Source: a virus
Reading direction: 5' to 3' (one strand)
Length of the DNA stretch: 64,000 nt
Virus record (IMG/VR): IMGVR_UViG_3300022752_000002
Coordinates: 1 to 64,000 of that record
The position numbers and the translations under genes are program-made. The notes beneath the pieces were generated by a model. It did no database searches, was not told the origin of the DNA, and was given only the letters and a program-made list of their open reading frames with translations. Shown in pieces: positions 12,904 to 27,072 of this stretch. The stretch's first letter is position 1. Every line of letters starts with the position of its first letter.

Positions 12904-12926
12904 ACATGAATTACCCGCCTTGTTTT

Positions 12927-13471
12927 ATGTCGGGTAAAAAAATAAAAATTCTGGTTGATTTTGGGGGGTGGAAAATGGCGATAGATAGATGAGGGGAATA
13001 GAGCCGGGGGAGAGCCCCGGACAGGATGAGGCGGAACCCCGCAAGGGAGACAGCCGCCGAAATCTCGCTAAACCTCCTTAACACCCCTCGCTTTTCCCCC
13101 TTCCCCCTTGGATCCCCCATCCCCGAGTTTGCCTTTACCTTGATGCTTTCACCTTTTCCTCAAGTTTCCACATCGATGAATCCGTCGTCGTTAACGCGTC
13201 GACGACGACTCAACTTTTAATTGTAAAACAATCTTTTGATTTTTATTTCCGTTATAGTCACCGCTACGCGGGGTGGGGTACAGGGGAGGGGGCGTGGTCG
13301 GGTAGGCAAGCTAAAAGTGAGGAGCCAAGATACGTTATCAGGACGGCTTATAATGGCTATTAGGCTTTATAAAGGCTCACAGAGTGTTGGGATGGGGTGG
13401 GGTGCTGTCCTGACCCTATCGGCCTAGGAAACGAATTTTAAGGCATTTTTACGGCGCAAAGAAGGGCATTC
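12927..13471. other. 545-bp stretch without a convincing gene
   Basis: Upstream of the resolvase start element. Short frames exist on both strands but their translations look non-biological. The stretch holds a G-rich run near 13265-13300, the hairpin at 13184-13206, an AT-rich patch at 13208-13255, and a 10-bp palindrome CTTTATAAAG near 13366. It may be a recombination, replication or promoter region; nothing more specific can be supported. Confidence 0.5.
13184..13206. promoter_or_regulatory. Inverted repeat (GTCGTCG / CGACGAC) upstream of resolvase
   Basis: A 7-bp perfect inverted repeat separated by 9 bases (TTAACGCGT), followed by an extra GAC and an AT-rich tract. It is the strongest dyad in the noncoding region next to the resolvase gene, so it is a candidate recombinase or regulator binding site. 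The function is inferred only from position. Confidence 0.4.
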
Positions 13472-13849
13472 CTATAAGCTGGTGTCGGGCTTATAGGCAG
13501 GACCTATGCGCCTACCCGGCAGCACACAGACGCTTCGGCTTAGGGTAAGGAGCTCCATGCCGGTGGACTTGTGCCGGCCCGTCTTGCCCAATCCCAGCAC
13601 CACCGCACGGCCATAAAACCGCTTCATGGTCAGATTACCCCCTTCATCGGATTTCTCCAAAACAATGAAGCCCCCGTCACAATCCGAATCCATAAAGGAA
13701 TCCTCAATCACATACATGACCTCGGTGTCGTTGATCCGTACCGCCTCCGGAGACCCACGGATAATCTGCACAATGCCCTTGGTCGACCCAGTCACGGTCT
13801 CCTCATAAATCTGCGGCTGCCCACAGGGATCAATCACAATGGCCCTCAT
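13472..13849 (-). CDS. DUF3846-like small protein
   Basis: 125 aa from MRAIVIDPCG. The N-terminal MRAIxIDP and the C-terminal GRAVVLGLGKTG match the layout of the 100-aa protein at 24490-24792 (MRAILIDP and GRGVIVGKGGE), so the two are paralogues. This pattern (short, IDP start, central acidic strand, glycine-rich end) is that of the phage DUF3846 family, whose function is unknown. No start element precedes it; an in-frame GTG 12 bases upstream is also possible. It is an isolated gene between two noncoding stretches. Confidence 0.65.
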   Translation of the reverse strand: MRAIVIDPCGQPQIYEETVTGSTKGIVQIIRGSPEAVRINDTEVMYVIEDSFMDSDCDGGFIVLEKSDEGGNLTMKRFYGRAVVLGLGKTGRHKSTGMELLTLSRSVCVLPGRRIGPAYKPDTSL

Positions 13850-14063
13850 ACCGCCAAACACCTAACCCCCGGGCCGGGGTAAGCAAATAATTCAGGGCAG
13901 GGGGGACACTTTCCATCTCAGAAAAATATTTTGGGGGGTGGGTAAGGGGGCCCCATGACCCTGTAAAAAATTTGGTGGTGGGCGGGTGGGTCCCATACTT
14001 TTTTTTATTCCGCTACCCGCTTGTGACCCAGAGCCCGATTTCGGGGGTGGGTCGGGGTGGGGT

Positions 14064-14294
14064 CTACGCTTTGTCGATTTCCTCCAGTAGTCGCTTAGCG
14101 TCCTCCAGTCCCTCGGCCTTCGCCGTCCGCTTGTATTTCTTGCCTGTGTATCTGGACAATAGGGCAAGCAAGTTGGAAGGCGTTGCCGTTCTGGTTAGGA
14201 GCATTTGCCCGCCTGTCTTGATGTGCATCTCCAAACCTTGTTTTATGCAGAATATCTGCATCCGTTCAGCGTGTCCGATTGTTATTGTTTCCAT
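14064..14294 (-). CDS. Small unknown protein, element-started
   Basis: 76 aa, METITIGHAERM at the start, beta-rich N-terminus and a basic helical C-terminus ending EEIDKA. The start lies 5 bases after a full copy of the start-associated element (14295-14317). That element also encodes the last residues (EKQGG) and stop of the gene upstream. No family recognised. Confidence 0.65.
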   Translation of the reverse strand: METITIGHAERMQIFCIKQGLEMHIKTGGQMLLTRTATPSNLLALLSRYTGKKYKRTAKAEGLEDAKRLLEEIDKA

Positions 14295-14301
14295 ACCCTA
14301 A

Positions 14302-14496
14302 TTACCCTCCCTGTTTTTCTGAAGGGTTCCCTTTTGAAACTACTACGCTGTTCCCCCTCTCGTCACAAGTCCAGTCGGGACAAGCTGACCCTCCCCCTTC
14401 GTGCGTGCGAGCCTTCGGAGGTGAGGCGGGTCTAACAACCGCCTTCCCTGTATAAATCCCATAAGCCCAAGGGGGTTCTGTTTGGGGGATCTTCAA
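14302..14496 (-). CDS. Small unknown protein with TTG start
   Basis: 64 aa, MKIPQTEPPWAYGI if TTG is the initiator. The TTG overlaps the upstream stop (CTTGA), and the frame ends EKQGG-stop inside the next start element. The Gly/Pro/Cys-rich middle (PDWTCDERGN) is unusual. Coding is supported by the coupling and by the filled interval; weak otherwise. Confidence 0.4.
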   Translation of the reverse strand: MKIPQTEPPWAYGIYTGKAVVRPASPPKARTHEGGGSACPDWTCDERGNSVVVSKGNPSEKQGG

Positions 14497-14711
14497 GCCA
14501 ACCTCGCCTGTTCAAAGGTTGCTTTTGAGAATCCGCTGGGTCTGACCCCTTGCGAGAGGTCGTTGACTGCCTCCATGAATTTGAATCGGGAGAAGTTGGG
14601 GTTCATCTCTTGGCAGAACTCCACCATCCGTTCCGTCATCTGTTGCTTCTCTGCTTGGTCTTTTATGCTGGCGACCATTACGGCCAGTTTTTCGAAGTGT
14701 TTTTTGCTCAT
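14493..14711 (-). CDS. Small helical protein, element-started
   Basis: 72 aa, MSKKHFEKLAVMVASIKD at the start, predicted mostly helical with Met and charged residues. The start lies at standard spacing after the element at 14712-14734. Downstream it is coupled to the TTG-started gene. No family recognised. Confidence 0.65.
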   Translation of the reverse strand: MSKKHFEKLAVMVASIKDQAEKQQMTERMVEFCQEMNPNFSRFKFMEAVNDLSQGVRPSGFSKATFEQARLA

Positions 14712-14767
14712 ACCCTAATTACCCTTGTTGTTTTCTTGGGATTCCTCTTTTCCCCGCCTTGGGGGAT

Positions 14768-14932
14768 CTAACGCTCCTCCGTGGCAAGGGCTAAGTCCTC
14801 GACCCTGCCGATGAGCCTGTGCGTCCTTGTCGGCGTGTTCAGCTCCGAGAGGAGGCGGTCGAAGGCATCGACCCGATTGATTTCATCCGTGCAGTTTTCC
14901 AAGTAGTGATAGATTTCGGTTAGGTTGTTCAT
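14768..14932 (-). CDS. 54-aa protein, element-started
   Basis: MNNLTEIYHYLENCTDEINR at the start, ending ALATEER. It is short, but its ATG sits exactly 5 bases after an element copy (14933-14955), which marks it as a real start. Helical and acidic; no function known. Confidence 0.6.
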   Translation of the reverse strand: MNNLTEIYHYLENCTDEINRVDAFDRLLSELNTPTRTHRLIGRVEDLALATEER

Positions 14933-14954
14933 ATCCTAATTATCTGGTTTGTTT

Positions 14955-15239
14955 TTAGAGACCCACCTCGGCAAAGGCCTCGTCTCTGACCTCCACGGCA
15001 TACTCTTTTGCGGTTTCAATAAGGCTTTTTGCCATTTCCTCGCTGGGGTCTTTTCGGAAGTCGGCAAACATATCGCCAAGCCCTTCGGACAAGTCGGCCA
15101 CAAGGGAAGTATCGCCCAAGTCATCCAATCCAATTCCCATAGTGCGACCCACCGCCCAGTTGAGGAGTTTCCGCCCAAGCCGGTAGTCCTCGTTGCATTT
15201 TTCAATCCAGCTTTTCAGAGTTTCGTGGTTTTTGTTCAT
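14955..15239 (-). CDS. Small acidic protein, element-started
   Basis: 94 aa, MNKNHETLKSWIEKC at the start. A central segment, LDDLGDTSLVADLSEG, is followed by charged helices. The start follows the element at 15240-15262; its stop lies just before the next element. Several neighbours begin MNK or MNE, hinting at a common 5' end. Function unknown. Confidence 0.65.
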   Translation of the reverse strand: MNKNHETLKSWIEKCNEDYRLGRKLLNWAVGRTMGIGLDDLGDTSLVADLSEGLGDMFADFRKDPSEEMAKSLIETAKEYAVEVRDEAFAEVGL

Positions 15240-15246
15240 ACCTTAA

Positions 15247-15534
15247 TTAGGCGGTTTGTTTTTCTGCGTTTTCGAAGGCAATCGCTTGGGCGTTTGCGAT
15301 CACGCTCTCCCTCGGCCTGTCCTCATCGAACTGGAAAGCGTCTTGGATTTTTTTGATATGGGCGAGCCAAGCCTCCGGATGCCAGAAGGATTTTGCCATT
15401 TTCTTTTTTACCTCATCGGAGTTTGCCAGCGTGGTTTCCGTGACCATCAAGATGCGCTCCCGAAGGACGGCCAAGGTTATGTCATCCAGCTCTGCAATCG
15501 CTTTCTTCATCACTTGTCGGTTGGTTTTGTTCAT
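15247..15534 (-). CDS. Small helical protein, element-started
   Basis: 95 aa, MNKTNRQVMKKAIAELDD at the start, ending ENAEKQTA; the last codons and stop come from the next element copy. All-helical appearance with an aromatic patch (SFWHPEAWLAHI) near residue 50. Start element at 15535-15557. Not recognised. Confidence 0.65.
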   Translation of the reverse strand: MNKTNRQVMKKAIAELDDITLAVLRERILMVTETTLANSDEVKKKMAKSFWHPEAWLAHIKKIQDAFQFDEDRPRESVIANAQAIAFENAEKQTA

Positions 15535-15594
15535 ACTGGAATTACCCTTGTGGTTTTTTGGGCGTGGTTAGTTACCTCCCACCCCATTTACCCA

Positions 15595-16035
15595 TTAGGC
15601 GGTTGCTGTTGCTTTTTTCGCCTCCTCGACCTCGGCAATTTTACGCATCAAGGCCATCACAAGCTTTTCGTAGAAGTCCACACATTCCTGTTCCACAAGG
15701 TTGTCAGCGACCTTCTGGGCGATCTGGTCGTGAGCAATTTCCTCATCAACTCTGTCGGCCACCCCTCTGACAATGTCGTCAATGTCTAGGCGGTCATATA
15801 CCGAGTCGCTAATGTCGCTGTTGTCAATCGTGTCGGCCACCCTGTCCACAATGTCGTCTTTTATCTGACTCGAATCCTCAAGGATGCCATCAACTGCCTT
15901 GTCGATGACTTGCTCCCGATACTTTTCAAGGTCTTGGGTTTCTGGTTGCTGGGTTTGTGTCGTTTCCGTAAGCGTCAAGATTTTCTCAATCGCTTCCTTG
16001 GCGACATTTACGATTTGCTGATGGGTTTCGTTCAT
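15595..16035 (-). CDS. Acidic helical repeat-like protein
   Basis: 146 aa, MNETHQQIVNVAKEAIEK at the start. Residues 45-110 repeat a rough 11-12-residue pattern around DxIVDRVADxI and DIVRGVADRVDEEI, suggesting amphipathic helices and self-association. Start element at 16036-16058. About 35 bases without a gene separate its stop from the next element. Function unknown. Confidence 0.65.
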   Translation of the reverse strand: MNETHQQIVNVAKEAIEKILTLTETTQTQQPETQDLEKYREQVIDKAVDGILEDSSQIKDDIVDRVADTIDNSDISDSVYDRLDIDDIVRGVADRVDEEIAHDQIAQKVADNLVEQECVDFYEKLVMALMRKIAEVEEAKKATATA

Positions 16036-16042
16036 ATCCTAA

Positions 16043-16240
16043 TTATCCAGCCTGTTTTTCCGATTCCGTGACTTCCGTGACCTCCAAGGCCTCAAAGTCG
16101 TAGTCCACATAATTCCAATCAACCTTGCAGTTTCCAGCCTCGGCCATCGCACCATCAACGGCCTCTTGGTCGTTATTGGCTTCTATCGTGACCCAAGCCT
16201 CTGCGATCTGGTTTTTCTGTAGTTTAACTCTGTATTTCAT
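16043..16240 (-). CDS. Small beta-rich protein, element-started
   Basis: 65 aa from MKYRVKLQKNQIAEAW. The frame extends upstream, but the element at 16241-16263 fixes this ATG. The alternating MKYRVxLxxxxxAEAWVTIEA layout resembles short phage proteins that contain AWVxVEA strands. It ends ESEKQAG-stop within the next element. Confidence 0.65.
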   Translation of the reverse strand: MKYRVKLQKNQIAEAWVTIEANNDQEAVDGAMAEAGNCKVDWNYVDYDFEALEVTEVTESEKQAG

Positions 16241-16247
16241 ATCTGAA

Positions 16248-16424
16248 TTATCCCGCTTGTTTCCCCGATGGTTGGATGATGCCGATGATTTTGCCAAATG
16301 CGGGAATCCAGTTTCTCAAGGCAATCGCATCCAAGCCCAAGTCTGTTTCTATGACGGCATAGGAGACTCCTGTTAGTTTTGCTAGGGTGCTGGCGGTTTT
16401 GATTGTGGTGTCCATATCTGTCAT
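16248..16424 (-). CDS. 58-aa protein, coupled start
   Basis: MTDMDTTIKTASTLAKLTG at the start, ending SGKQAG-stop inside an element, the same C-terminal KQAG as the neighbouring 65-aa protein because the element encodes it. The ATG overlaps the stop of the 25-aa frame upstream. No recognised domain. Confidence 0.55.
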   Translation of the reverse strand: MTDMDTTIKTASTLAKLTGVSYAVIETDLGLDAIALRNWIPAFGKIIGIIQPSGKQAG

Positions 16425-16498: not shown

Positions 16499-16499
16499 A

Positions 16500-16652
16500 T
16501 CAGATTCCTCCCAAGTCTGGTTCTTTGTCGTGGATTTCGGCGGGGACAAAGGTCGGGTCTTGTTTGGACTTCTCGTCTCCCTCGTAAACCGCCATATCGC
16601 ACAAGCCTTCGATGATCGTTATGTATCCGATGGGTTTTGGTGTTTTGCTCAT
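16500..16652 (-). CDS. 50-aa protein, element-started
   Basis: MSKTPKPIGYITIIEGLCD at the start, ending DLGGI. The start is placed by the element at 16653-16675. First of three consecutive tiny genes. Not recognised. Confidence 0.6.
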   Translation of the reverse strand: MSKTPKPIGYITIIEGLCDMAVYEGDEKSKQDPTFVPAEIHDKEPDLGGI

Positions 16653-16655
16653 ACC

Positions 16656-17153
16656 TCAATTATCCAGTTTGTTTTCAAGGGTTCGAATTGACTTGAAGAA
16701 AATCCGTATAAGCTCGTCTGCTTCCTCAATCAGAGAATTAAGCTCTCGGAGCGGTCTGACCTTCTGAATGAGTCGCAGGGCTTGGCGTGATGCCCTCAAT
16801 TCCTTTTCGACCTCTCTGAATTTATCGGCAAACCCTTTCGCCGTCATACTCGCCTCGGCCTCTCCGTGTCGGAAGTAGGACGCTACGGACGGCTTCAAAA
16901 GCTCCTCGGTCAGATTTGTGCTGACAGGGTCTTTGGGGAGTTTGTTGGCAATCCCCAAGCATCCAGAGACAAAGGCTAGGAGTTGGTCGCTGACGCAGAT
17001 TTCAGATTGTTTGCTTGTTTTCTTTTTGTTCTGCACCCGCACCTGATTACGCTCGTGCAGATATTCGAGAAGGTGGTCGGTTATGTGGCCATCCCCCTCG
17101 TATTCCTTTAGGTCTTCAATAATTTCATCAAATATTTTGTCTTTTTTGCTCAT
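16656..17153 (-). CDS. Unknown helical protein, 165 aa
   Basis: MSKKDKIFDEIIEDLKEY at the start; strongly charged and helical, with a probable coiled coil at 105-160 (EVEKELRASRQALRLIQKV). It ends ENKLDN, encoded by the next element. Start element at 17154-17176. No family recognised. Confidence 0.65.
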   Translation of the reverse strand: MSKKDKIFDEIIEDLKEYEGDGHITDHLLEYLHERNQVRVQNKKKTSKQSEICVSDQLLAFVSGCLGIANKLPKDPVSTNLTEELLKPSVASYFRHGEAEASMTAKGFADKFREVEKELRASRQALRLIQKVRPLRELNSLIEEADELIRIFFKSIRTLENKLDN

Positions 17154-17175
17154 ATCTCAATTATCCGAGGTGTTT

Positions 17176-17472
17176 TTAGGCTCTCCCTGTTTTCTTGTTA
17201 TATGCTTTGACCAAGTAGGCGTGACAAAACTCCAGAATCGAATCTAAGTTTTGGTCTTGATCCTCTGAAATGTGTTCGTGTCTTTTTGAATAACGCTCGG
17301 CCTCATCGCTGGCGTATTGCAACGCATCGGCAAGGTCGGACAAAAATTCGCAACTCGTTCCGCCGTCAAATAGTTGGGATATTACATTCACCGCTTGCGT
17401 GATTTGATGCGGGTGCGAGCAAGCCGACATAAACTCACCGGCACAATTCAGTTTTGTTTCGTCCAAGCTCAT
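17176..17472 (-). CDS. Small protein, coupled start
   Basis: 98 aa, MSLDETKLNCAGEFMSACSH at the start. The ATG overlaps the stop of the 68-aa gene upstream (CGATGAGC). Contains Cys and His scattered without a metal-site pattern. Function unknown. Confidence 0.6.
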   Translation of the reverse strand: MSLDETKLNCAGEFMSACSHPHQITQAVNVISQLFDGGTSCEFLSDLADALQYASDEAERYSKRHEHISEDQDQNLDSILEFCHAYLVKAYNKKTGRA

Positions 17473-17675: not shown

Positions 17676-18742
17676 ACTGCAATTACCTCGGCTGTTTCCT
17701 CGGCCTCCTCGTCCTCCGTCTCAACTCCGCTGGTTGTTAGGTCTTTCTCGGCTTGTAAGTAGCCCTCTTGGTAGCCTTTTCTGAACTGCTTGCTTTGGGT
17801 TTTGTCCTCGTAGTATCCAGCTCCGTTCTGGTTGTCCATATAGCCCTCGTCATAGCCGGTCTGGTAATCGGTCTCTGACCCGCTTCCTTCGTGATCTGGA
17901 ACTCCTGTTTCGGTTCCGTCTTCGTCATTCCATCCTCCGGTGGTTGTGGATTTGTAGGTTTTCTTTGGGTAGTAGGTCGTGCCATAACCGAGGGACAACT
18001 GATCCTTGGCATAGCTACGCTTACGGATGGGTTTGACCCGCTTCTTGCCCAGAATTGACCCCAACTTGGTTTCAATGGCGTGGTTTGCTTTGATCTGGAT
18101 CGGGGCTTGCGGAGTTTGTTCAAAAACATCTTTAACTACGCTTGTGCCGTCCAAGGCGGATGTAGCCACGACAAACCCTCCGTTGAATCTTACGCAATAA
18201 AGGGAAGGGGTTTCATCCCGATATATTGTTAGGTGTCCATCCCTGCGGATGATGAGCAGGGCGGCATAGCCCTCGTAATACTTGGAAAGCTCCTTCCAGC
18301 CCTTGCCCTTCGTGAAGGTGTTGAATAAGTCCTCGCTGTCACAAGTGCCGACCTTTTTACGGCGGGGTCCGGTATAATCGACAATTCCGTTATGAGCCAA
18401 GGCCAGCTCATCGCTGACAAAGGGATGGGTATTTTTAATCCCAAGGTCGTTTGTCGAAGTCCGTCCGTGGAATAGGCCAGCCGTGCAAGGCTTAATCTCA
18501 CCTCGCAAGTCAAAGGTGGGTTTGGCTACCGATTCCCACTCTCCAAGCGGATCGTAGCCGTATCCGAGAAGGTTGCCGGTGACAAGTCGAAGGGACGTTA
18601 TTCCTTCAATGTCGCCACCCGACAACGCATACCCGAATCCATCTTTCTGATCCTTCAGAAGGTCACGACTGGTTTTGATAAGTTTGTCCAGCCGTTCCTT
18701 CTCAAGGGGTTTATCAACGCTGAATCCAATTAGTCTGCACAT
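17672..18742 (-). CDS. Class II glutamine amidotransferase (Ntn hydrolase)
   Basis: 356 aa. Met1 is followed by Cys2, the N-terminal nucleophile exposed after Met removal. The glutaminase motifs follow in order: FHGRTSTND (H92, R94), THPF (106-107), LAHNGIVD (N118-G119, oxyanion hole) and CDSEDLF (134-140). These enzymes release ammonia from glutamine for a partner synthetase. Residues about 255-356 are an unusual acidic, Tyr/Gly-rich tail with GYxEGY repeats and no amidotransferase partner domain. The likely partner is the adjacent amidoligase (24 bases away), a pairing described for phage amidoligase operons. Start element at 18743-18765. The product modified is unknown. Confidence 0.88.
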   Translation of the reverse strand: MCRLIGFSVDKPLEKERLDKLIKTSRDLLKDQKDGFGYALSGGDIEGITSLRLVTGNLLGYGYDPLGEWESVAKPTFDLRGEIKPCTAGLFHGRTSTNDLGIKNTHPFVSDELALAHNGIVDYTGPRRKKVGTCDSEDLFNTFTKGKGWKELSKYYEGYAALLIIRRDGHLTIYRDETPSLYCVRFNGGFVVATSALDGTSVVKDVFEQTPQAPIQIKANHAIETKLGSILGKKRVKPIRKRSYAKDQLSLGYGTTYYPKKTYKSTTTGGWNDEDGTETGVPDHEGSGSETDYQTGYDEGYMDNQNGAGYYEDKTQSKQFRKGYQEGYLQAEKDLTTSGVETEDEEAEETAEVIAV

Positions 18743-18765
18743 ATCTTAATTATCCTTTCTGTTTT

Positions 18766-19959
18766 TCAGCTAACGGCGTAGCCGTCTGTTAGCCGGTGTT
18801 TGTCCTCAAGGATCATCTTGTCCCGCAACTTCAAGGCATCTTGCGAGTGAAACTGCCGGTAGCGTCTCCACAAGTAGGCTCTGATCGTCTCTGGAAGCGT
18901 CCGCATTTTGATGATGTCTTCCAGCGATACGCTTAGGATGCCGTTGCCGTGCTTGTGGGAGTTTGCCTCGGCCACCTCATCGACCTCCGAGGAGGTGACA
19001 ATCCACTTGTTGAGATCGACCCACCCCATAATTTTCCAGAAGTCCAGCGTCCCGCCGTGTAGTCGGTTCTCGGTTGTCGTATGCTCGCAGTAGGCTGATG
19101 CGTGATTGATTGCCAAGTAGCGGTCGGTCGAGTGCCGGTAAGTGAATCCCCGATGAATCGGCCTGTTCATACGGCAATAGCGATTGTCCAATCGGGAAGG
19201 TGCGACAATACTTGCCAAGGCTGGCAAACATTTGATAAGTCGCTTGGCTCGCTTGGATGCCATCGCTGAACTGACACCCCGCTGGTCGAGGTGCAAGTGC
19301 ATCCCGCAACTGGTGTTGACCTCCGCACCGCTGGCGTTGAGTTTATCGACAACTCCCTTCAGTCGCAGGGGACGCTCGTGGCGGAATGTCACCTTAAACT
19401 CTGCCGACCCCCAGTCTGGGTCTTCGCTGTCGCCATCGTCCTCGTTCCGTTCCTCGTCCCTGTCCCTGTCGGGATACCACTCCAAGGAGCCGTCATCCTC
19501 CTTGTCGATCAGCATCCGTCCAAGCTGGCGAAGGTTTGGAATGTTATCCTTGTCCTCAAACACACACTCCAGCTCAACCGAGCAAAGCTGTCCTTTGAAG
19601 GCTTGGAAGTATTTAGCCTCCAAGTCCGTGTCTTCCTTTGGCCGAAGTCCACGGCGAAGGTAGGAGAGGGAGCCGAAGTTTGTCTGACGCTTCTCCCAGC
19701 GTTCTTTCTCCTTGGCCAACTCCTCCTCGGAGATGTTGAGTGTCCTTGCATACCACCGATCACGCATTTGTTTGGATAGTCTCATATCTGAATTACCCAG
19801 CTGGTTTTCCTGCCCTTCCGCATATTCCCGCATCGCATCGATGTAGGCCGTCAATGTCCGGGGATCTTGGTCTATCTCATCGACCCCGAACTTGCGGACG
19901 AAACGCCGTAGTTGCTGTTTTGCGGAGAGGCTTTTTGTTTTTTTGGGGCGTTTCGCCAT
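18766..19959 (-). CDS. Amidoligase (COOH-NH2 ligase family) with N-terminal extension
   Basis: 397 aa from the ATG at 19959. A second start-associated element at 19786-19808 precedes an in-frame ATG at 19785, giving a 339-aa form that begins MRLSKQMRDRWY. Numbered from 19785, the GCS-like fold of amidoligases is seen as VELEC (70-74), TSCGMHLHLDQRG (158-170) and RLHGGTLDFWKIMGWVDLNK (241-260). These enzymes join a carboxylate to an amine using ATP, forming peptide-like bonds in proteins or small molecules. The N-terminal 58-residue piece (MAKRPKKTKSLSAKQQ) is basic and may be a formerly separate gene now fused in frame. The neighbouring amidotransferase probably supplies ammonia. Confidence 0.82.
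   Translation of the reverse strand: MAKRPKKTKSLSAKQQLRRFVRKFGVDEIDQDPRTLTAYIDAMREYAEGQENQLGNSDMRLSKQMRDRWYARTLNISEEELAKEKERWEKRQTNFGSLSYLRRGLRPKEDTDLEAKYFQAFKGQLCSVELECVFEDKDNIPNLRQLGRMLIDKEDDGSLEWYPDRDRDEERNEDDGDSEDPDWGSAEFKVTFRHERPLRLKGVVDKLNASGAEVNTSCGMHLHLDQRGVSSAMASKRAKRLIKCLPALASIVAPSRLDNRYCRMNRPIHRGFTYRHSTDRYLAINHASAYCEHTTTENRLHGGTLDFWKIMGWVDLNKWIVTSSEVDEVAEANSHKHGNGILSVSLEDIIKMRTLPETIRAYLWRRYRQFHSQDALKLRDKMILEDKHRLTDGYAVS
19786..19808 (-). promoter_or_regulatory. Start-associated element inside an open frame
   Basis: A copy (AAAACC, AGCT, GGGTAATT, CAGAT, ATG) whose frame has no stop, so translation from 19959 reads through it in frame. It implies a second start at 19785 within the amidoligase gene. 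Confidence 0.75.
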
Positions 19960-19981
19960 GCCCCAATTAACCGGCGTGTTT

Positions 19982-20578
19982 TTAGTCGGTGAGGAGCCGT
20001 GCCTTCGCCCAATACCGACACTCGTTCTGGTCGTATTTGCGGGGGTAGGGGGATTGCTGGTGTTTGGCGACAAACCCCTCCCAAATCACCTCGCAACGGC
20101 GTTCATTGACCTCCCGCATATCTTCAAGGATGAGCCGTGCCTGTGCCTGTGAGTAGGATGGGAATCGAAGGATTGAGTTTGTTGGAATATCGTCCAGCGG
20201 AACCTCGCATAGCTCGTTGAGCAACTGCCTTCGCTCCGAATAGGGCAGGGGAGAGTCCATCAAGTCCATTACCACCACCGACCCCTTACCGGCCTTGGTG
20301 CGTCTGCCAAGGAACTCGCAGTCCAGCATACCGAGACCGGCAATGGCGGGGGTGCTTGCGACAATGTCCAGAATGTGACCCGACTCGGAGAAGGTTGTTC
20401 CGTGCCGTGAAATCACCCTGCCTTTTTCGGCATCCACGACACACCTCCATCCGTTTATCTTCGGCTCAAATGCCCAATCGGAGAATGACTCCAAGGCTAG
20501 GGCGGTGACGCAGGGGTAGGGTCGAAGGGGTAGCCTCGGAGACCTACTTACAAGCGTGGTGGGAGCCTCAACTGACAT
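19982..20578 (-). CDS. ATP-dependent nucleic acid ligase, adenylation domain only
   Basis: 198 aa from ATG 20578, which overlaps the stop of the 196-aa gene upstream. Nucleotidyltransferase motifs are visible: I at EPKINGWR (Lys40 would take the AMP), III at LDCEFLG (85-91), IV at EGFVAK (167-172) and V at YWAKAR (189-194). There is no OB-fold domain after motif V, so this is a minimal ligase. It could seal DNA or RNA nicks or, given its neighbours, adenylate another substrate. Motif I has Asn where DNA ligases usually have Asp (KxDG), which weakens a plain DNA ligase reading. Confidence 0.78.
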   Translation of the reverse strand: MSVEAPTTLVSRSPRLPLRPYPCVTALALESFSDWAFEPKINGWRCVVDAEKGRVISRHGTTFSESGHILDIVASTPAIAGLGMLDCEFLGRRTKAGKGSVVVMDLMDSPLPYSERRQLLNELCEVPLDDIPTNSILRFPSYSQAQARLILEDMREVNERRCEVIWEGFVAKHQQSPYPRKYDQNECRYWAKARLLTD

Positions 20579-21158: not shown

Positions 21159-21165
21159 ATATCAA

Positions 21166-21546
21166 TTACCCAGCTTGTTCCAAGATGTCGGCCAGCTTTT
21201 CGACCAGCCAGCCTTTGGCCTCCTCCGCATTTTCGGTTGTCTTCTTTCCATAATGGTTCAAATAAAAAGTTCCGCTTTCAATAGATAGCCTCCACCCAAT
21301 ATCGCCACCCCAATCCCAAAATCCAATGAAGTGGTCTGTGGCCTTATATTCCCAAACTTTCTTTATCGATCCTTCACGACTATTTCTCAGCCTTGCCGGA
21401 AGATGCCTAACCTCATCGTATATCTTTTTGAGAGGAGAAAACTTAGCGGCATCCTCCTCGTCAATTCTCTGTTTTACGGCTTTGGCGTGATCCTCTGCCG
21501 CCTTGTTCATCGCCTGTTTCGATCTGATTAGTTCTAGTGCTGTCAT
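21166..21546 (-). CDS. Unknown protein, 126 aa, element-started
   Basis: MTALELIRSKQAMNKAAED at the start, with an N-terminal helix and a C-terminal beta region containing FIGFWDWGGDIGWRLSIESG. It ends ILEQAG-stop inside the next element. Start element at 21547-21569. No family recognised. Confidence 0.65.
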   Translation of the reverse strand: MTALELIRSKQAMNKAAEDHAKAVKQRIDEEDAAKFSPLKKIYDEVRHLPARLRNSREGSIKKVWEYKATDHFIGFWDWGGDIGWRLSIESGTFYLNHYGKKTTENAEEAKGWLVEKLADILEQAG

Positions 21547-21549
21547 ATA

Positions 21550-22233
21550 TCAATTAACCGCCGTGTTTTTGAACATCTTTTTCATTTGTTTCTCCAGCAA
21601 CGCCTCTGCTCTTTTCACCATCCCCCGCCTAGCTTCAACGGCCTCGTTTTCCTCGTCTGGCGTGAAGTGGTCGGTGATTATGTTGTCGCTGTCGCCCTCG
21701 TCATACCATTCGTTGGTGATGACTTCGCCGGTCTCGTCAGCCATCTTTTGGAGGATGGGTTCGGGTGGAGACCAAGCCGTGCAGAATGTCACCGAGGAGC
21801 CGTCCTCCGACCAGTTTGTCCAGTAGGAGTTCCACTTGGTTCCCCAATTTTCAATGCACCATCCATACCAATCCTTGTGGCCGTATTTCTTGAGGTTTTG
21901 GATAGCTTTCTTGCCCTCGTTCAGCTCTTTTGGGGACAGCTTCTTTTTCTCGTGCTCATAAAGGGCTTCTGCCGTTGTGATTCCAAGCTCCTTGACCCAA
22001 GGCCAGTGAAGCCGGTCTTTGAAGTATGCCATATCCTTTTTAAGGACGGCGATAGCGGTGTCCACGCTTCCACCGGCGGTGATGGCCAGAGACTTCGGCA
22101 TCCTTTTGACATAATCAAAATTGATGTTGAAGTTGCCCTCGTCATCGGCTTTTTCGGAGATGTAGGGTTTCAATACCTCACGGATGTTTCGTCCGCTTTG
22201 GAGTGTCAGTAGGTTTGTGATGTGGTTAGGCAT
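21550..22233 (-). CDS. Api92-like phage protein (ferredoxin-like fold)
   Basis: 227 aa. It has the layout of the Api92-like/DUF1281 family: MPNHITNLL at the N-terminus, FDYVKRMPKSL near residue 40, then KDWYGWCIENWGTKWNSYW (about 118-136) and VTFCTAWSPPEPILQKMA (about 146-163). These proteins are widespread in phages and plasmids and their biochemical role is unknown. Start element at 22234-22256. Confidence 0.8.
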   Translation of the reverse strand: MPNHITNLLTLQSGRNIREVLKPYISEKADDEGNFNINFDYVKRMPKSLAITAGGSVDTAIAVLKKDMAYFKDRLHWPWVKELGITTAEALYEHEKKKLSPKELNEGKKAIQNLKKYGHKDWYGWCIENWGTKWNSYWTNWSEDGSSVTFCTAWSPPEPILQKMADETGEVITNEWYDEGDSDNIITDHFTPDEENEAVEARRGMVKRAEALLEKQMKKMFKNTAVN

Positions 22234-22236
22234 AGC

Positions 22237-22611
22237 TCAATTACCCTTCTTGTTTTCCTGTTCGGCAAACCTTGGGACGCCAAGCCCGACCCAGCCGTAG
22301 TTTTTCCGGTCGATTGAGCCTGCGATCATATAAATGTCGTGCATGAAGCTGAAGCTGTCCTTGGTTTCAGCCATTTCTTTGAGGCGAAGCCGGTGGTGCT
22401 TTACATGGCAAACCTCCAAGTCCATCGCCAAGTCTATTGTCCCCCTGTCGTGGAGGCGGGGAGGGAACTCGGTTCCGTCCGATAAGAACTTGTCCCTCTC
22501 GCAAGCCCTCTTGGCGATTTCGTGAATCAGTTTTGTCTCGGAAAGGGTAAGGCTACCCCAATCAAAGAACCCGTCACCCTTCAGCGTTTTTCCCTGTTTT
22601 CGTTTTTTCAT
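22237..22611 (-). CDS. Phage protein resembling DUF6874-type proteins
   Basis: 124 aa. Residues 30-115 contain IAKRACERD, then MDLEVCHVKHHRLRLKEM, FSFMHDIYMIAGSIDR and a terminal VPRFAEQ. This order (RA, MDxxxxH, LxL, FxHDxxxI, PRF) matches a small uncharacterised phage family that I recall as DUF6874; that identification is tentative. Start element at 22612-22634; it ends EQENKKGN within the next element. Confidence 0.65.
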   Translation of the reverse strand: MKKRKQGKTLKGDGFFDWGSLTLSETKLIHEIAKRACERDKFLSDGTEFPPRLHDRGTIDLAMDLEVCHVKHHRLRLKEMAETKDSFSFMHDIYMIAGSIDRKNYGWVGLGVPRFAEQENKKGN

Positions 22612-22820
22612 ATCATAATTAGCTTTCTTGTTTTTTTGCCGTCCGAGGCGATTTGGTAAGACATGGAAATCGAATCCTCCATTTCTTTCCCGCTTACATA
22701 CGCTTCGATTGTTGCCTTGTTGCGTCCACGACCAAGGATGCGGAAGGCAATCCCATTGACCTCAATCCAAGCAGCCCCGTCCTTTAGTAGATAGTCTCCG
22801 TCCCTAATGCGGTTTTTCAT
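22608..22820 (-). CDS. Small beta-rich protein, coupled start
   Basis: 70 aa from MKNRIRDGDYLLKDGAAWIE; the ATG lies just upstream of the previous gene's stop. The body alternates short strands (WIEVNGIAFRILGRG). It ends in the next element, where its TGA overlaps the following ATG. Unknown. Confidence 0.6.
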   Translation of the reverse strand: MKNRIRDGDYLLKDGAAWIEVNGIAFRILGRGRNKATIEAYVSGKEMEDSISMSYQIASDGKKTRKLIMI

Positions 22821-23053
22821 ACAATGTCCAAGTGACCGGCTCCGTTGCCCTCCGGATCGCACATAATCCAAGCGGTCTTGATCTTTCCGCTTTTGGTGCG
22901 GAATACCAAACCATACTCCTCATCGCTGGTGTGGCCGGTGTCCGTGTTTCTTGCTATGTCCACGCAAACGGCTCCTTTGAGTTGTTTGAGGTGTTCAAAG
23001 CCCCAGTCCTTGGATTGTGGCTCCTCTGATAATAGTGTGATGCCTTTAGTCAT
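22817..23053 (-). CDS. Small unknown protein, coupled start
   Basis: 78 aa, MTKGITLLSEEPQSKDWGF at the start. ATG overlaps the upstream TGA (GTATGACT). The second half, EYGLVFRTKSGKIKTAWIMC, looks like a beta sheet with a surface Trp and Cys. Unknown. Confidence 0.6.
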   Translation of the reverse strand: MTKGITLLSEEPQSKDWGFEHLKQLKGAVCVDIARNTDTGHTSDEEYGLVFRTKSGKIKTAWIMCDPEGNGAGHLDIV

Positions 23054-23289
23054 ACCTTCCCCTCCATCATTTCCTTGTAGAGTTGTTCTGGAGTGGGCTT
23101 CAAAACCCATCCGTCCCAAACCTCGATGGCTTTTTTTTCTTGGATTCCACCGACATACGGAATCCTTGTGGTGTCAATCGGCCAAACCCCCGCCTTCTTG
23201 GCCTTTTCGATGGCCTCTTCGGGGCTGTTGGCCTTGACGACCTTATACCTCCACCGCTTTTCCCATCCTTCGACTTTGTATGTTTTCAC
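23050..23289 (-). CDS. Small unknown protein with GTG start
   Basis: 79 aa, MKTYKVEGWEKRWRYKVVKA. The initiator is GTG, placed exactly 5 bases after an element copy (23290-23312). The EKRWRYKVVKANSPEEAIEKA layout is that of short phage proteins with a beta strand followed by an SPEEAIEKA helix. Unknown function. Confidence 0.65.
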   Translation of the reverse strand: MKTYKVEGWEKRWRYKVVKANSPEEAIEKAKKAGVWPIDTTRIPYVGGIQEKKAIEVWDGWVLKPTPEQLYKEMMEGKV

Positions 23290-23312
23290 GCCTCAATTAC
23301 CCCCGATGTTTC
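23290..23312 (-). promoter_or_regulatory. Start-associated element before a GTG start
   Basis: AAACA, TCGG, GGGTAATT, GAGGC, then GTG. The invariant spacing to a non-ATG initiator shows that the element marks the start position rather than being part of a repeat that happens to include ATG. Confidence 0.75.
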
Positions 23313-23446
23313 AGTCGCCTCAAGGTAGGACAAAATCGCATCCCTTGGGCTGAACCCCATTCCCACGGGCTCGCAGGGCTCCCGCCGTAATTATCATCGG
23401 TGCAAACCCACTGCCCCATGCAGATGTATTCTATGTCTAGCCTCAT
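23297..23446 (-). CDS. 49-aa protein, element-started
   Basis: MRLDIEYICMGQWVCTDDNY at the start, ending RLKHRG. The element at 23447-23469 is slightly diverged (GGGTAGTT). Two Cys and several Trp; the C-terminal part is basic. Unknown. Confidence 0.55.
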   Translation of the reverse strand: MRLDIEYICMGQWVCTDDNYGGSPASPWEWGSAQGMRFCPTLRRLKHRG

Positions 23447-24009
23447 ACCCCAACTACCCGCCGTGTTCTGCGGCCTCTTGAGGCATAAATCTGGGCAACT
23501 TGGGACCAATCCGATATTTCTCCGAAGCAATGAAAGAATCTTGCCCTCTCGGCTCTCTCGTGCTCTTGAATGGCCTGATGTTCCGGAGGGGTCATGTCAA
23601 TAGCCCTCAAAAACACCAACCCATCGTTCTCTTCCTCAAACAAATCCTGATAAGAAAACCCGTAATGAGTTAACGCCCATTCAACTTCCTGAGTTATTTC
23701 TCCCGTGAGCCAATTTCGATCAAGCGGCGGGAGGAGCTTGGCGACCCAAGCGGGCGATGGGCTGTCCCAGTCATCCGTCATTACTTTGGACTCCTCATGC
23801 ATCAATACGGCGTGGCAACCTCCCGCATATACCGAATCCCTGTGCTCTCCCGGCCCCCAAAAATCAATAAGTGGATTAACCCTTCTAACAATGCATGATC
23901 CGATTTCGCACAATCCGCCGGCAGCGGGACGCCAGTCGCCCCAGCCTTCGATGTGGTCTTGAAGCTCCTCCTCCGCTTCCGCTTTTGCAAAAAGGTCTAA
24001 TTGATTCAT
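23443..24009 (-). CDS. Unknown protein, 188 aa, element-started
   Basis: MNQLDLFAKAEAEEELQDHI at the start. The MNQLDLF N-terminus resembles clamp- or replisome-binding peptides (QLxLF) but this is only similarity. A middle region contains WRPAAGGLCEIGSC, and the C-terminus is basic (RGRRTRRVVGV), its last residues coming from the next element. Start element at 24010-24032. Function unknown. Confidence 0.65.
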   Translation of the reverse strand: MNQLDLFAKAEAEEELQDHIEGWGDWRPAAGGLCEIGSCIVRRVNPLIDFWGPGEHRDSVYAGGCHAVLMHEESKVMTDDWDSPSPAWVAKLLPPLDRNWLTGEITQEVEWALTHYGFSYQDLFEEENDGLVFLRAIDMTPPEHQAIQEHERAERARFFHCFGEISDWSQVAQIYASRGRRTRRVVGV

Positions 24010-24037
24010 GGATCAATTACCCCTTGTGTTTTTGGGG

Positions 24038-24217
24038 CTATTTAAGCGTCTTGCCTATCGAGGGGTGGCCGTGAACCCGATCTATGATGGCTCTGACCAC
24101 GGCTCCGTTGATAGCCTCTAGGAACTCACCGCTGATGCGGGTGAATTTGCCGTTCCTTCGTTCTTTGCTGAGGTGAAGGGCATATTTTTTGACTTGGGCT
24201 TTGTTGATGAGGCTCAT
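24038..24217 (-). CDS. 59-aa basic protein, element-started
   Basis: MSLINKAQVKKYALHLSKER at the start, with FLEAINGAVVRAIIDRVHGH in the middle. The VKKYAL, SGEFLEAIN and IDRVHGHPSIG arrangement resembles histone-like or ribbon-helix-helix small phage DNA-binding proteins. Start element at 24218-24240 (diverged, GAATAGTT). Confidence 0.6.
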   Translation of the reverse strand: MSLINKAQVKKYALHLSKERRNGKFTRISGEFLEAINGAVVRAIIDRVHGHPSIGKTLK

Positions 24218-24468
24218 GCCTTAACTATTCGCCTTGTTTCTGCGTCTTTGCTGTGAAAGGTGTGGGCTCGGCAGTTATCGGCAACCCCGACCACCGCAAC
24301 CTTCAATCCGTTTCGCTCCACGACATGAATGTCCCTATTCCAGCATCCATCCCAGTAGATTTTGTGGCCTTTTTCAAAATTCTCGTCCCCAAACCATACA
24401 GCAAACCCAACATAGACTTCCTTGTCCTTAATTTTGCCCAACTGCTTGATTAGGTCTTTTATTTTCAT
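24214..24468 (-). CDS. Small unknown protein, element-started
   Basis: 84 aa, MKIKDLIKQLGKIKDKEVYV at the start. The KDLIxxLxxxxdDxxVxV opening is a common phage layout. Residues 55-70 (GLKVAVVGVADNCRAHTFHS) form a hydrophobic strand pair. Start element at 24469-24491; its stop overlaps the next start. Confidence 0.65.
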   Translation of the reverse strand: MKIKDLIKQLGKIKDKEVYVGFAVWFGDENFEKGHKIYWDGCWNRDIHVVERNGLKVAVVGVADNCRAHTFHSKDAETRRIVKA

Positions 24469-24489
24469 GCCCCAATTACCCGCCTTGTT

Positions 24490-24792
24490 TTATTTGTGGA
24501 TAATGGTGACCAGCTGTGAGGCCTTGAGCAGGGGAAGCAGGGCATCGGCCTCGCCACCCTTGCCAACAATCACCCCACGGCCACCGAAGGTGAAGTTGCC
24601 GATCTGAAACCTACCGCTGAACTTGGGGCTCTTCTGTATATTCCACTCCTCGTTGACGAAGAGGGTGTCCCTTTGGATGGGGTAGGCCTCGATGTAGCCA
24701 CCGACCAGCTCCTGAAGCTTCTCAAGGGTCGGCTCGACATCGATCTCGGATATCGCCGGCGTTGCGGAGGGGTCAATAAGGATGGCTCTCAT
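24490..24792 (-). CDS. DUF3846-like protein (paralogue of 13472-13849)
   Basis: 100 aa from ATG 24792, overlapping the TGA of the upstream 33-aa membrane peptide gene. MRAILIDPSATPAI at the start, then LEKLQELVGGYIEAYPI (about 24-40) and FVNEEWNIQKSP. The Q-x-L-V-G-G-Y-I-E element and the NEE strand are the hallmark of phage DUF3846 proteins. Function unknown. Confidence 0.75.
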   Translation of the reverse strand: MRAILIDPSATPAISEIDVEPTLEKLQELVGGYIEAYPIQRDTLFVNEEWNIQKSPKFSGRFQIGNFTFGGRGVIVGKGGEADALLPLLKASQLVTIIHK

Positions 24793-24890
24793 TTGAAGGC
24801 TAGGGTTGTGAGTCCCACCAGAAATCCAAGCACAAGGCCGGTGGTGTAGCACCAAAAACCGATTTTTTCCTCAAGCTCCTTTGTGGTCAT
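24789..24890 (-). CDS. 33-aa membrane peptide
   Basis: MTTKELEEKIGFWCYTTGLV then LGFLVGLTTLAFK; one transmembrane helix at about 11-31. The start overlaps the upstream TGA and the stop overlaps the next ATG. Second of a tandem pair of 33-aa membrane peptides. Confidence 0.55.
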   Translation of the reverse strand: MTTKELEEKIGFWCYTTGLVLGFLVGLTTLAFK

Positions 24891-24988
24891 AGAATGGCCC
24901 TCAGGAGTGCGATGATGAATGCGGTGACACCAAAGCCCACCGCAAAGCCCAAGTTGAAGACTAGGAAGTATATTGGCAGTAGAATCAT
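24887..24988 (-). CDS. 33-aa membrane peptide, element-started
   Basis: MILLPIYFLVFNLGFAVGFG then VTAFIIALLRAIL; hydrophobic along nearly its whole length, with one Arg near the end. The element at 24989-25011 marks the start, which argues for real translation despite the size. Could be a holin-like, exclusion or membrane-regulatory peptide. Confidence 0.6.
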   Translation of the reverse strand: MILLPIYFLVFNLGFAVGFGVTAFIIALLRAIL

Positions 24989-24991
24989 GAC

Positions 24992-25288
24992 CTAATTACC
25001 CGCCGTGTTTTCAGCCAGCTCTAGGTTCTCGGCCTCGGCGGGTGGCTCAATCTCGCGGAATCGCCATTCGGCAAAGCCACGCTCGGGGTGAGGGGGTTTC
25101 TGGGAGCAGGGGTTCTCCATTCCGTCCAGATAGACCACGATCTCCCCCGGTTCGCCCTTGTGGGATATTCCCACGCCCATGCCACGGACGACATAGACCC
25201 TGTCCTTGAGGGGAAGGGAGTTGTAGTAAATAAGGATCTCGGGAGGGAAGCGGTCATCCACACACACAACCTTGCTGCCGGCCCTCAT
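24992..25288 (-). CDS. Unknown protein, 98 aa, coupled start
   Basis: From MRAGSKVVCVDDRFPPEIL; the ATG overlaps the TGA of the 65-aa gene upstream. The frame is open further upstream, but the coupled start is preferred. Beta-rich middle (RVYVVRGMGVGI) and an acidic tail ending ENTAGN encoded by the next element. Unknown. Confidence 0.6.
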   Translation of the reverse strand: MRAGSKVVCVDDRFPPEILIYYNSLPLKDRVYVVRGMGVGISHKGEPGEIVVYLDGMENPCSQKPPHPERGFAEWRFREIEPPAEAENLELAENTAGN

Positions 25289-25482
25289 GGCTTCCTCCAA
25301 ATAACTTCGTCCTTGTCCAGCTCGCACGACCACCGCATGAGGCGGCTGTAAGCCCTGTATCCATAGCCCCAACGGAGCAGGGTATGGCTGATAAGGTCGC
25401 CGGCCCCATAGCAGAGCCAAGCCGACCCCAGCCTCAAAAGGCCTTTAATTCGGCTCTCTTTGTGCTTTCGATGGTTCGCCAT
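25285..25482 (-). CDS. Small basic protein, unknown
   Basis: 65 aa, MANHRKHKESRIKGLLRLGS at the start, with Trp- and Arg-rich helices, possibly amphipathic. It overlaps the 3' end of the 115-aa gene by 49 bases and couples to the downstream gene. The large overlap makes the exact start uncertain. Confidence 0.5.
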   Translation of the reverse strand: MANHRKHKESRIKGLLRLGSAWLCYGAGDLISHTLLRWGYGYRAYSRLMRWSCELDKDEVIWRKP

Positions 25483-25781
25483 ATCTCAATCTGGTTCTGT
25501 GCGGCCGTCATCAGGGCCTTGATCTTTTCCTCGGCAAAAACGGCCTCCTTGTGGGCCTTGAGGAGCTCCAAAAACTCGGGGTGGGCAAGGGCTTCGCGCT
25601 CCTGTGCGGCCAAGGCCCCGTGCGTCTTGGAGAGCTCCTGCATGAGCGTGGCCTTCTTGCTCTTTAGAAACTGCTCGATGTAGGCCCTCTCGGCTTTGGC
25701 GTTAGCCAGCTTTTCGGCATTGTCCCGCATCCAAGCCAAAGCCTTGAGCGGGTCGGGGGCATCGTTGATTTCGTAGCTCAT
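25434..25781 (-). CDS. Helical protein of a recombination-associated type
   Basis: 115 aa, MSYEINDAPDPLKALAWMRD at the start; entirely helical, with EQFLKSKKATLM and EEKIKALMTAAQNQIEIWRT. This arrangement is seen in small phage proteins encoded near RecT or exonuclease genes, of unknown role. It has a GGAG Shine-Dalgarno formed by the end of the upstream gene rather than an element. Confidence 0.65.
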   Translation of the reverse strand: MSYEINDAPDPLKALAWMRDNAEKLANAKAERAYIEQFLKSKKATLMQELSKTHGALAAQEREALAHPEFLELLKAHKEAVFAEEKIKALMTAAQNQIEIWRTIESTKRAELKAF

Positions 25782-25783
25782 TT

Positions 25784-25981
25784 TTACTCCTTGTCGGCAA
25801 TTCTAATATCGCCATCAATTTCGTATCCGGCTCCTCTTAAAAAATTCCTGATCTCCGGTAAAACCTCGTCCAAACATACGGCCGAGAATTCGTGCGTAAT
25901 TCTGGCCTGCGAAGACTTGGAAATGTTTGATGCCTCAAGATCGTCCAAGCAATACTCAAAGATTAGGGTGAATTTATTCAT
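25784..25981 (-). CDS. Small unknown protein, coupled start
   Basis: 65 aa from MNKFTLIFEYCLDDLEAS; the ATG overlaps the upstream TGA (AAAATGA). Mixed alpha/beta; FTLIFEY and ARITHEFSAVCLDEVLPEI are compatible with a small ferredoxin-like fold. Its terminal KEstop supplies the GGAG of the next gene. Confidence 0.6.
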   Translation of the reverse strand: MNKFTLIFEYCLDDLEASNISKSSQARITHEFSAVCLDEVLPEIRNFLRGAGYEIDGDIRIADKE

Positions 25982-26325
25982 TTTATTGGTTGGTCGCACC
26001 TGACCCAAGCAAAGCCCGACCCCTTCATAATGTTGTTCCTCTCAAATGAGGTTGCGTAGGTCATCATGGAAAACTTCAAGATGTTCCTGTCCGCATCTAC
26101 CAAGGCGAAACTCAATTCGGGACAAAACTCCTGCTTCCATAGCCGGCTGGCCTTGGTGGAGCGTTTGTCGTTTCTGCGGACGGCCTCCATCATCCCGCGC
26201 TTTGGCCTTCCTGCGGAAGCCAGCGACAGCCTTGCCGTGATGGCCGAGGCGATAATGTTGTAGTCGGTGCCGGTTGGTCCGGTTGACCCACGGCTAACCC
26301 GAGACATGTGTCTTCGCTGGTTCAT
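25978..26325 (-). CDS. Unknown basic protein, 115 aa
   Basis: From MNQRRHMSRVSRGSTGPTGT; the start lies 2 bases after the HNH gene stop. Arg-rich N-terminus with GPTGTDYNIIASAITARL, then a mixed domain with LSFALVDADRNILKFS. No domain recognised. Confidence 0.55.
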   Translation of the reverse strand: MNQRRHMSRVSRGSTGPTGTDYNIIASAITARLSLASAGRPKRGMMEAVRRNDKRSTKASRLWKQEFCPELSFALVDADRNILKFSMMTYATSFERNNIMKGSGFAWVRCDQPIK

Positions 26326-26326
26326 T

Positions 26327-26629
26327 TTAGGCGGGAAGGATGTAGCCTTTTTGTCTGGCCCACCTTCCATTGGCGTGGATTTCGGCGTGACAGCCTTGGC
26401 AGATCGCCATGAAGAACTCCTCGGCGTTGAGCCGCCAAGCGATTCTTCCCCGTTTGTGATGGATCTGGGTGGCCTTCCTCCCGCAAAGCCGGCAGTAGGG
26501 AAAGCGTTTTAAGTAGGAAACACGCAATTTTCTGTAGTGATCCAGCTGGCCCTTTCGCTTCTGGGTAAAAGGACGAAGCCTCCCAGACCGCTTGAGCGGA
26601 GTTTTGCGCCTTAGCCAGCATCGCTTCAC
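26327..26629 (-). CDS. HNH endonuclease
   Basis: 100 aa with a GTG start that overlaps the upstream stop (GGGTGA). CRLCG (C46, C49) and CQGCHAEIH (C77, C80) would hold a structural zinc. The catalytic HNH core is QIHHKRG (H57/H58), N68 and H81 or H85. The N-terminal 40 residues are very basic, for DNA contact. Stand-alone HNH proteins of this size often nick DNA and are common beside phage packaging or replication genes. Here it sits in the early-type small-gene array, not next to TerL. Confidence 0.88.
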   Translation of the reverse strand: MKRCWLRRKTPLKRSGRLRPFTQKRKGQLDHYRKLRVSYLKRFPYCRLCGRKATQIHHKRGRIAWRLNAEEFFMAICQGCHAEIHANGRWARQKGYILPA

Positions 26630-26994
26630 CCAGCCGAAGCCCTCTTGAGGAGATCGTAATATTCATTACGCATGTCGCTTCCGTGCTTCCGCATTTCAGC
26701 AAGGAACTTTGGCTCGTTGCGGATCGCGGGAGTCTCGGCCATCGTGACGTTTGACATCAGGCTCGACCAGCGGGTCAGGCCCTTTCTGGTGCTGGTGGAG
26801 ATGGACAGGAAGAAGAGGAGGTAGGCTACCTCTGTCGCCACGGCCTTGGTGGCCGGGTTTTCATCGTCAGAGTCTCCAAGAACCTTCTCCATAATTGCCA
26901 GAAGAAGGCAGGAGGCATCGGTGGGGCTCTTGTCCCCGACCCTTTGTTTGATGTAACGGCAGGCTATATCGACTATTTCGTGGTTTGGCTTCAT
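26626..26994 (-). CDS. Unknown protein, 122 aa, first gene of the array
   Basis: From MKPNHEIVDIACRYIKQRVG; helical, with a hydrophobic patch (VAYLLFFLSIST) near residue 60. The frame continues upstream through the element as KNTAGNSA, but the element at 26995-27017 marks the ATG at 26994. It is the most upstream gene of the minus-strand array and follows the divergent control region. Confidence 0.65.
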   Translation of the reverse strand: MKPNHEIVDIACRYIKQRVGDKSPTDASCLLLAIMEKVLGDSDDENPATKAVATEVAYLLFFLSISTSTRKGLTRWSSLMSNVTMAETPAIRNEPKFLAEMRKHGSDMRNEYYDLLKRASAG

Positions 26995-27072
26995 GGCCGA
27001 ATTACCCGCCGTGTTTTTCACTAGAATTCGGGTACTTGTGGCGGTGGGGTGGGCAAGAACAATTTTAGGTGA

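Follow-up and report, generated by a model that had tools for sequence, protein, structure and literature searches.

We describe here a start-associated element, AAAACA-N4-GGGTAATT-N5-[A/G]TG, that occurs in 25 copies on the minus strand between positions 12,904 and 27,017 of a tailed-phage genome, in a stretch of DNA that we term the window (64,000 of the 64,882 bp of IMG/VR record IMGVR_UViG_3300022752_000002). The element consists of two boxes at fixed distances from the start codon, box 1 (AAAACA) at -23 to -18 and box 2 (GGGTAATT) at -13 to -6. Judging from sequence patterns, we give a probability of about 0.5 to the interpretation that it is a promoter box specific to the phage, from which leaderless mRNAs would arise.

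Architecture and occurrence of the element

The start codon that follows the 25 minus-strand copies is ATG in 24 cases and GTG in one (23,289). A 26th copy lies on the plus strand at 27,115-27,137, before a divergent GTG gene, and all 26 have exactly four bases between the boxes and then exactly five before the ATG (24 copies) or GTG (two). All fourteen box letters are matched in eight of the 26, while the remainder carry one to four changes, for the most part purine-for-purine exchanges in the first two positions of each box. The original prediction for this stretch had described 25 rigidly spaced minus-strand copies, one of them before a GTG and one inside an open frame (19,786-19,808, within 18,766-19,959). 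Its count, its spacing and both of these special placements hold up, but only the eight copies are exact in sequence, and the plus-strand copy had been missed.

Scanning the window with a position weight matrix (PWM) built from 24 of the window copies, and scored on those same copies too, gave 26 matches above a threshold of 18 bits, all of them directly before start codons; the next best match reached no more than 12.4 bits, and random genomes with the same dinucleotides contained 0.01 sites above 18 bits per genome. The bias in strand and position is real: a single block holds 25 of the 26 on its coding strand, and the structural genes hold none. A match with three mismatches at 20,411 does not precede a start, while the degenerate copy at 24,218-24,240 (GAAACA-AGGC-GAATAGTT-AAGGC-ATG) does. 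Within the element, an AT-rich TAATT occupies -10 to -6, the boxes are about 11 bp apart centre to centre, which is one DNA helical turn, and most copies hold stop codons in two or three frames.

Conservation in related phages

Four relatives in IMG/VR carry the same element before small genes (3300044949_002421, 64.8 kb; 3300045999_006869; 3300021091_000226; 3300013132_000706), and no element is found before starts in the structural regions of this phage group. The window and these relatives together provide 75 distinct start-adjacent copies, a set chosen to have the start codon at the fifth base after box 2. In an unfiltered count no copy has an internal gap of three or five, and N4 is kept throughout, the sole exceptions being two compositional matches with a gap of 0, both in a single genome; a few copies in the relatives have six or seven bases before the ATG instead of five. 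Thus, of the spacing expected to be conserved in relatives, N4 is conserved and N5 is not absolute.

Every copy (75/75) has a C or T at position -1, compared with 27/47 at other starts in the window. Across 48 ortholog pairs, identity is 94% and 89% in the two boxes, 49% in N4, 37% upstream (-60 to -30) and 59% in coding sequence (+13 to +39); position -1 differs in 19 of these pairs, always as C versus T and never to a purine. Three of the longer-gap copies have a purine at the fifth base after box 2 yet retain a T directly before the ATG, which suggests that the pyrimidine is linked to the start codon.

A more distant relative, L077 (3300032303_002011), has a major capsid protein 70% identical to that of the window phage and early proteins about 50% identical. 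Variant elements stand at all three of its comparable orthologous starts, GAAACA-AGAA-GGCTAAAT-AGGCC-ATG, CAAACA-ATAG-GACTAATT-GAGGC-ATG and CAAACA-GCGG-GACTATCT-ATGGAT-ATG, the last with six bases before the start, and we therefore conclude that the architecture is older than the sequence consensus. L077 also has an ordinary Shine-Dalgarno (SD)-type site where the window has one. A pattern scan for the L077 variant element found no further block.

Translation signals and the nested copy

An SD-like word is present at 2/25 element starts versus 17/50 other starts, in line with the earlier suggestion that the element replaces a normal SD site. Ordinary SD sites are found at several genes, including the major capsid gene (AAAGGAGG), the portal and the exonuclease. 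Starts in the block that have no element had been expected nearly always to overlap the previous stop or to have an SD site, and this is so for most (AAGGAG at 25,781, GGAGG at 25,288), but the start near 13,849-13,861 has neither; its ortholog in L011 has the element.

Other phages also have the class II glutamine amidotransferase gene (about 50% identity); there it lacks the element, and its start has AAAGGA at the place of GGATAATT. From this we conclude both that the element is a property of the phage rather than of the gene and that it stands in for the SD site. The gene is paired with an amidoligase gene (18766-19959, minus strand), a pair common to otherwise different phages. The nested copy of the element lies in the amidoligase frame, before an in-frame internal ATG that lies 58 codons after the first start; L016 and L009 share this in-frame arrangement, the distances in the two relatives being 61 and 66 codons, and the frame is open through the nested element in all three genomes. 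Two amidoligase isoforms are thus predicted, whichever of the mechanisms discussed below is at work.

Interpretation of the element

As a promoter, the element would be recognised in its DNA form by a transcription-initiation machinery whose promoter preference is specific to the phage, boxes 1 and 2 together forming one promoter. Transcription would start on the A or G that opens the start codon, or no more than one or two bases from it. RNA polymerase start sites prefer a pyrimidine at -1 and a purine at +1. A pyrimidine tied to the start codon is what would be expected if the A or G of that codon were the first base of the transcript, and the copies do present a pyrimidine(-1)/purine(+1) initiator at the start codon (75/75 at -1) together with a fixed distance from box to start (N5 in nearly all). 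The resulting mRNAs would be leaderless or nearly so and would need no SD site; genes overlapping the previous stop would rely on translational coupling within these mRNAs, and structural genes on their ordinary SD sites. We favour recognition as DNA because of the rigid N4 with its single helical turn, the AT-rich box 2, the initiator, and the scarcity of sigma70-like promoters in the block (2 versus 9.8 expected). There are precedents in phage phiYS40, which makes leaderless middle and late mRNAs (PMC3594737), and in Deinococcus, where promoter boxes adjoin start codons and their spacing is required (PMC12340547). The original prediction offered three readings, a promoter of near-leaderless transcripts, pairing with the 16S tail and a cassette boundary, and the first of these is, on sequence grounds, the best supported.

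Several observations weigh against a leaderless promoter. Searches of the complete genome with Pfam/PHROGs, motifs and hidden Markov models revealed no recognisable RNA polymerase, single-subunit or two-barrel, and no sigma factor, and a DxDGD-type loop or T7-type motif is absent in six frames and in the giant protein described below, whose weak matches to sigma region 4 and helix-turn-helix (HTH) domains fall below the Pfam cut-off and are a lead only. Some 26 promoters within 14 kb would be unusually dense. TANNNT, the sigma-A -10 box, is found near the start in only 1/75 copies, the GG of box 2 lies where related cassettes of other phages have AAAGGA, and a conserved TAAAAT-containing block in the divergent region could be the real promoter. 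GTG is used at 4/75 element starts, and leaderless mRNAs use GTG starts poorly in some hosts.

The main alternative, to which we give less than even odds, is that the element acts in RNA. Carried in polycistronic early mRNAs, it would be bound by a phage or host factor controlling initiation, be it an activator or a RegA-like repressor, with GG(G/A) as a weak SD core. The element does sit at the SD position, GAAAGGA in the amidotransferase copy lines up with the AAAGGA site of other phages, and genes mostly carry one of three things: an element, an overlap with the previous stop, or an SD site. The absence of a recognised polymerase or sigma gene fits this reading too, as do an anti-SD duplex energy slightly better than random (-6.4 versus -4.9) and the possible ordinary promoter block upstream of the first leftward element; T4 RegA, moreover, binds at or beside the AUG of about 30 early mRNAs (PMC3014915). 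However, the strict C or T at -1 and the invariant N4 would be unexplained in single-stranded RNA, RegA sites have no clear consensus, and no candidate RNA-binding factor was found.

It is very improbable that GGGTAATT acts as a non-canonical SD sequence by base-pairing to GAUCACC in the 16S tail. By inspection 7/8 bases can pair if wobble is allowed, but the conserved bases do not maximise pairing: the explanation fails because -9 is A in 75/75 copies where G would pair, and in addition -11 varies freely, box 1 has no partner, and strong canonical SD sites, such as that of the major capsid gene, are used elsewhere in the genome. We hold it equally improbable that the element is a recombination boundary at which small genes are shuffled as cassettes and upstream genes are supplied with stop codons. 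Stops in two or three frames are indeed present in most copies, as predicted, and gene content in the block varies between relatives, but cassettes shared with other phages, among them the amidoligase/amidotransferase pair, lack the element there, and the nested copy supplies no stop. Orthologous copies also diverge in place, keeping their own spacers. The supply of stop codons looks secondary, because copies without an upstream gene or frame keep both boxes, which in first genes are perfect.

Returning to the leaderless promoter, we tentatively put forward, as less likely than not, the possibility that a hitherto undescribed compact bipartite promoter, AAAACA-N4-GGGTAATT, drives much of the non-structural programme, such that nearly every non-overlapping gene of the block would have its own leaderless mRNA. 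We infer its recogniser, as we do its promoter nature and the position of the transcription start: a sigma-like factor of the phage that has diverged might fill this role, one candidate being the sigma-region-4-like segment of the injected giant protein.

Comparison with known systems

The closest parallel is the start-associated sequence (SAS) of cluster K mycobacteriophages, a short directional repeat before non-structural starts whose function is unproven (PMC3203893, PMC11373665, PMC12699233). Both lie just upstream of many non-structural starts (here 26 copies, none in structural genes), have stops inside and are conserved, across subclusters for the SAS and across relatives for the element. 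The SAS, however, is GGGATAGGAGCCC, a single box with a real AGGAG lying 3-9 bp from the start, in some cases with an inverted-repeat ESAS/SigA promoter upstream. The element has two boxes and no AGGAG core (any SD-like word being present in 2/25), an invariant N4 and a nearly fixed N5, a pyrimidine at -1 and no upstream conservation. The SAS consensus, allowing up to two mismatches, is matched twice in the window where 1.9 matches are expected, and neither match is at an element, which bears out the earlier remark that the cluster K sequence is a different one. The element thus works like the cluster K SAS but is of another family: it is a start-associated sequence, not SAS.

In phiYS40 (PMC3594737), as proposed here, phage genes are expected to be translated without an SD leader, but the host is Thermus and the genes are middle and late, whereas here they are non-structural, the sequence is another one, and leaderlessness is our reading of it. 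The -10 motif of Deinococcus-Thermus (PMC12340547) is likewise a promoter box directly before the start with a spacing requirement. It is TANNNT, read by the housekeeping sigma; this is absent in 74/75 of our copies, the element does not have the form of a sigma-A leaderless promoter of the Deinococcus type, and here a second, upstream box is conserved. The operators of T4 RegA (PMC3014915) also mark early genes at the start codon, but they are A+U-rich with no clear consensus, and no RegA homolog was recognised in the window phage.

Genome context and neighbouring features

The ends of the record share a 127-bp overlap, and the genome is therefore complete and circular, with a length of 64,755 bp. 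It encodes tailed-phage genes (a terminase, an SU10-type portal, a major head protein and a giant protein of 4,772 amino acids). The plus-strand block at 27.1-36 kb holds DNA metabolism genes, including an exonuclease, a RusA resolvase and a replisome organiser-like protein; the minus-strand block at 12.3-27 kb holds small genes, the amidoligase and class II glutamine amidotransferase, a ligase-like gene and a serine recombinase. From its position and gene content, the minus block is probably expressed early. Among INPHARED phages the block has no DNA match, and the portal and amidotransferase no protein match; none of the cultured phage or bacterial genomes in the collections searched matches this phage. 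Scanning 84,980 bacterial and archaeal species genomes for the element gave 21 single matches, about the level of chance, and therefore no host or prophage is assigned.

The giant protein (minus strand; window 1-3307 and 53744-64000) runs across the circular junction. It has a ddrB-ParB-like domain and, in addition, two sigma-region-4/HTH-like segments, GMSFREIANALGI and GMSFEDIADEYGI, the segment GMSFEDIADEYGI being recognisable in relatives too, and in one relative it has a HATPase/RIIA-like insertion. A Cys-rich protein (27951-28556, plus strand), whose basic GGRKKSPKKR tail is kept as far as the distant relative, is a candidate nucleic-acid binder and a possible recogniser of the element.

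The divergent gene pair with its elements is also present in three relatives, which have ATG where the window has GTG. The region between (27018-27114) contains a conserved TAAAAT..CTTGCCCACCCCACCGCC block, possibly an operator or an ordinary promoter, and in the window phage also an inverted repeat (GGTCACAAATTGTGATC). As an ordinary sigma70 promoter it was rejected: TAAAAT is conserved but no -35 box is seen. Structure prediction for the divergent-gene protein (27138-27623) was of low confidence (pLDDT 43).

Next to the serine recombinase gene, 12930-14060 is GC-rich and largely non-coding and has an inverted repeat (GTCGTCGTCGACGCGTTAACGACGACG); a DUF3846-like gene within it lacks the element, which its L011 ortholog has. 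Non-coding gaps on the minus strand at 14320-14490 and 15560-15594 precede elements and hold possible hairpins (e.g. GGGGTGGGAGGTAACTAACCACGCCC). An Rfam search gave no match, these gaps included, and terminators are not enriched.

Table 1. Copies of the element and neighbouring sites in the window, with PWM scores in bits.
Feature	Position	Strand	Score and remarks
Copy before serine recombinase gene 12313-12903	12904..12926	minus	30.9; ortholog in L011 1636
Copy before gene 14064-14294	14295..14317	minus	31.0
Copy before gene 14493-14711	14712..14734	minus	30.7
Copy before gene 14768-14932	14933..14955	minus	27.9
Copy before gene 14955-15239	15240..15262	minus	25.8
Copy before gene 15247-15534	15535..15557	minus	22.1
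Copy before gene 15595-16035	16036..16058	minus	29.2
Copy before gene 16043-16240	16241..16263	minus	28.3
Copy before gene 16500-16652	16653..16675	minus	30.4
Copy before gene 16656-17153	17154..17176	minus	27.9
Copy before gene 17469-17675	17676..17698	minus	20.1
Copy before class II glutamine amidotransferase-like gene 17672-18742	18743..18765	minus	28.2
Nested copy in open frame 18766-19959, before in-frame internal start 19785	19786..19808	minus	28.4
Copy before amidoligase-like gene 18766-19959	19960..19982	minus	29.0
Copy before gene 20568-21158	21159..21181	minus	25.3
Copy before gene 21166-21546	21547..21569	minus	28.4
Copy before gene 21550-22233	22234..22256	minus	31.2
Copy before gene 22237-22611	22612..22634	minus	24.0
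Copy before GTG gene 23050-23289	23290..23312	minus	24.6
Copy before gene 23297-23446	23447..23469	minus	25.7
Copy before gene 23443-24009	24010..24032	minus	25.0
Degenerate copy before gene 24038-24217	24218..24240	minus	19.2; L077 ortholog has variant copy
Copy before gene 24214-24468	24469..24491	minus	32.1
Copy before gene 24887-24988	24989..25011	minus	28.0
Copy before first leftward gene 26626-26994, divergent junction	26995..27017	minus	28.6
Copy before divergent GTG gene 27138-27623	27115..27137	plus	18.6; start is ATG in relatives
Conserved block TAAAAT..CTTGCCCACCCCACCGCC between divergent elements	27040..27067	minus	almost unchanged across four genomes; occurs once in window
Ordinary SD site AAGGAG before element-less gene 25434-25781	25782..25798	minus	L077 ortholog: SD-type site, no recognised element

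Significance

Start-associated repeats have been known in phages since 2011, their function unproven. The element described here is a second such family, unrelated in sequence, under far tighter constraints and conserved over divergent genomes, and for these reasons it makes the choice between transcription and translation directly testable. It is also a reliable start-codon marker for the annotation of such genomes. As a translation signal, the element would define a regulon of early genes whose RNA code is unusually clear; as a leaderless promoter, it would be a single 23-bp unit with which the phage replaces both the host promoter and the SD signal.

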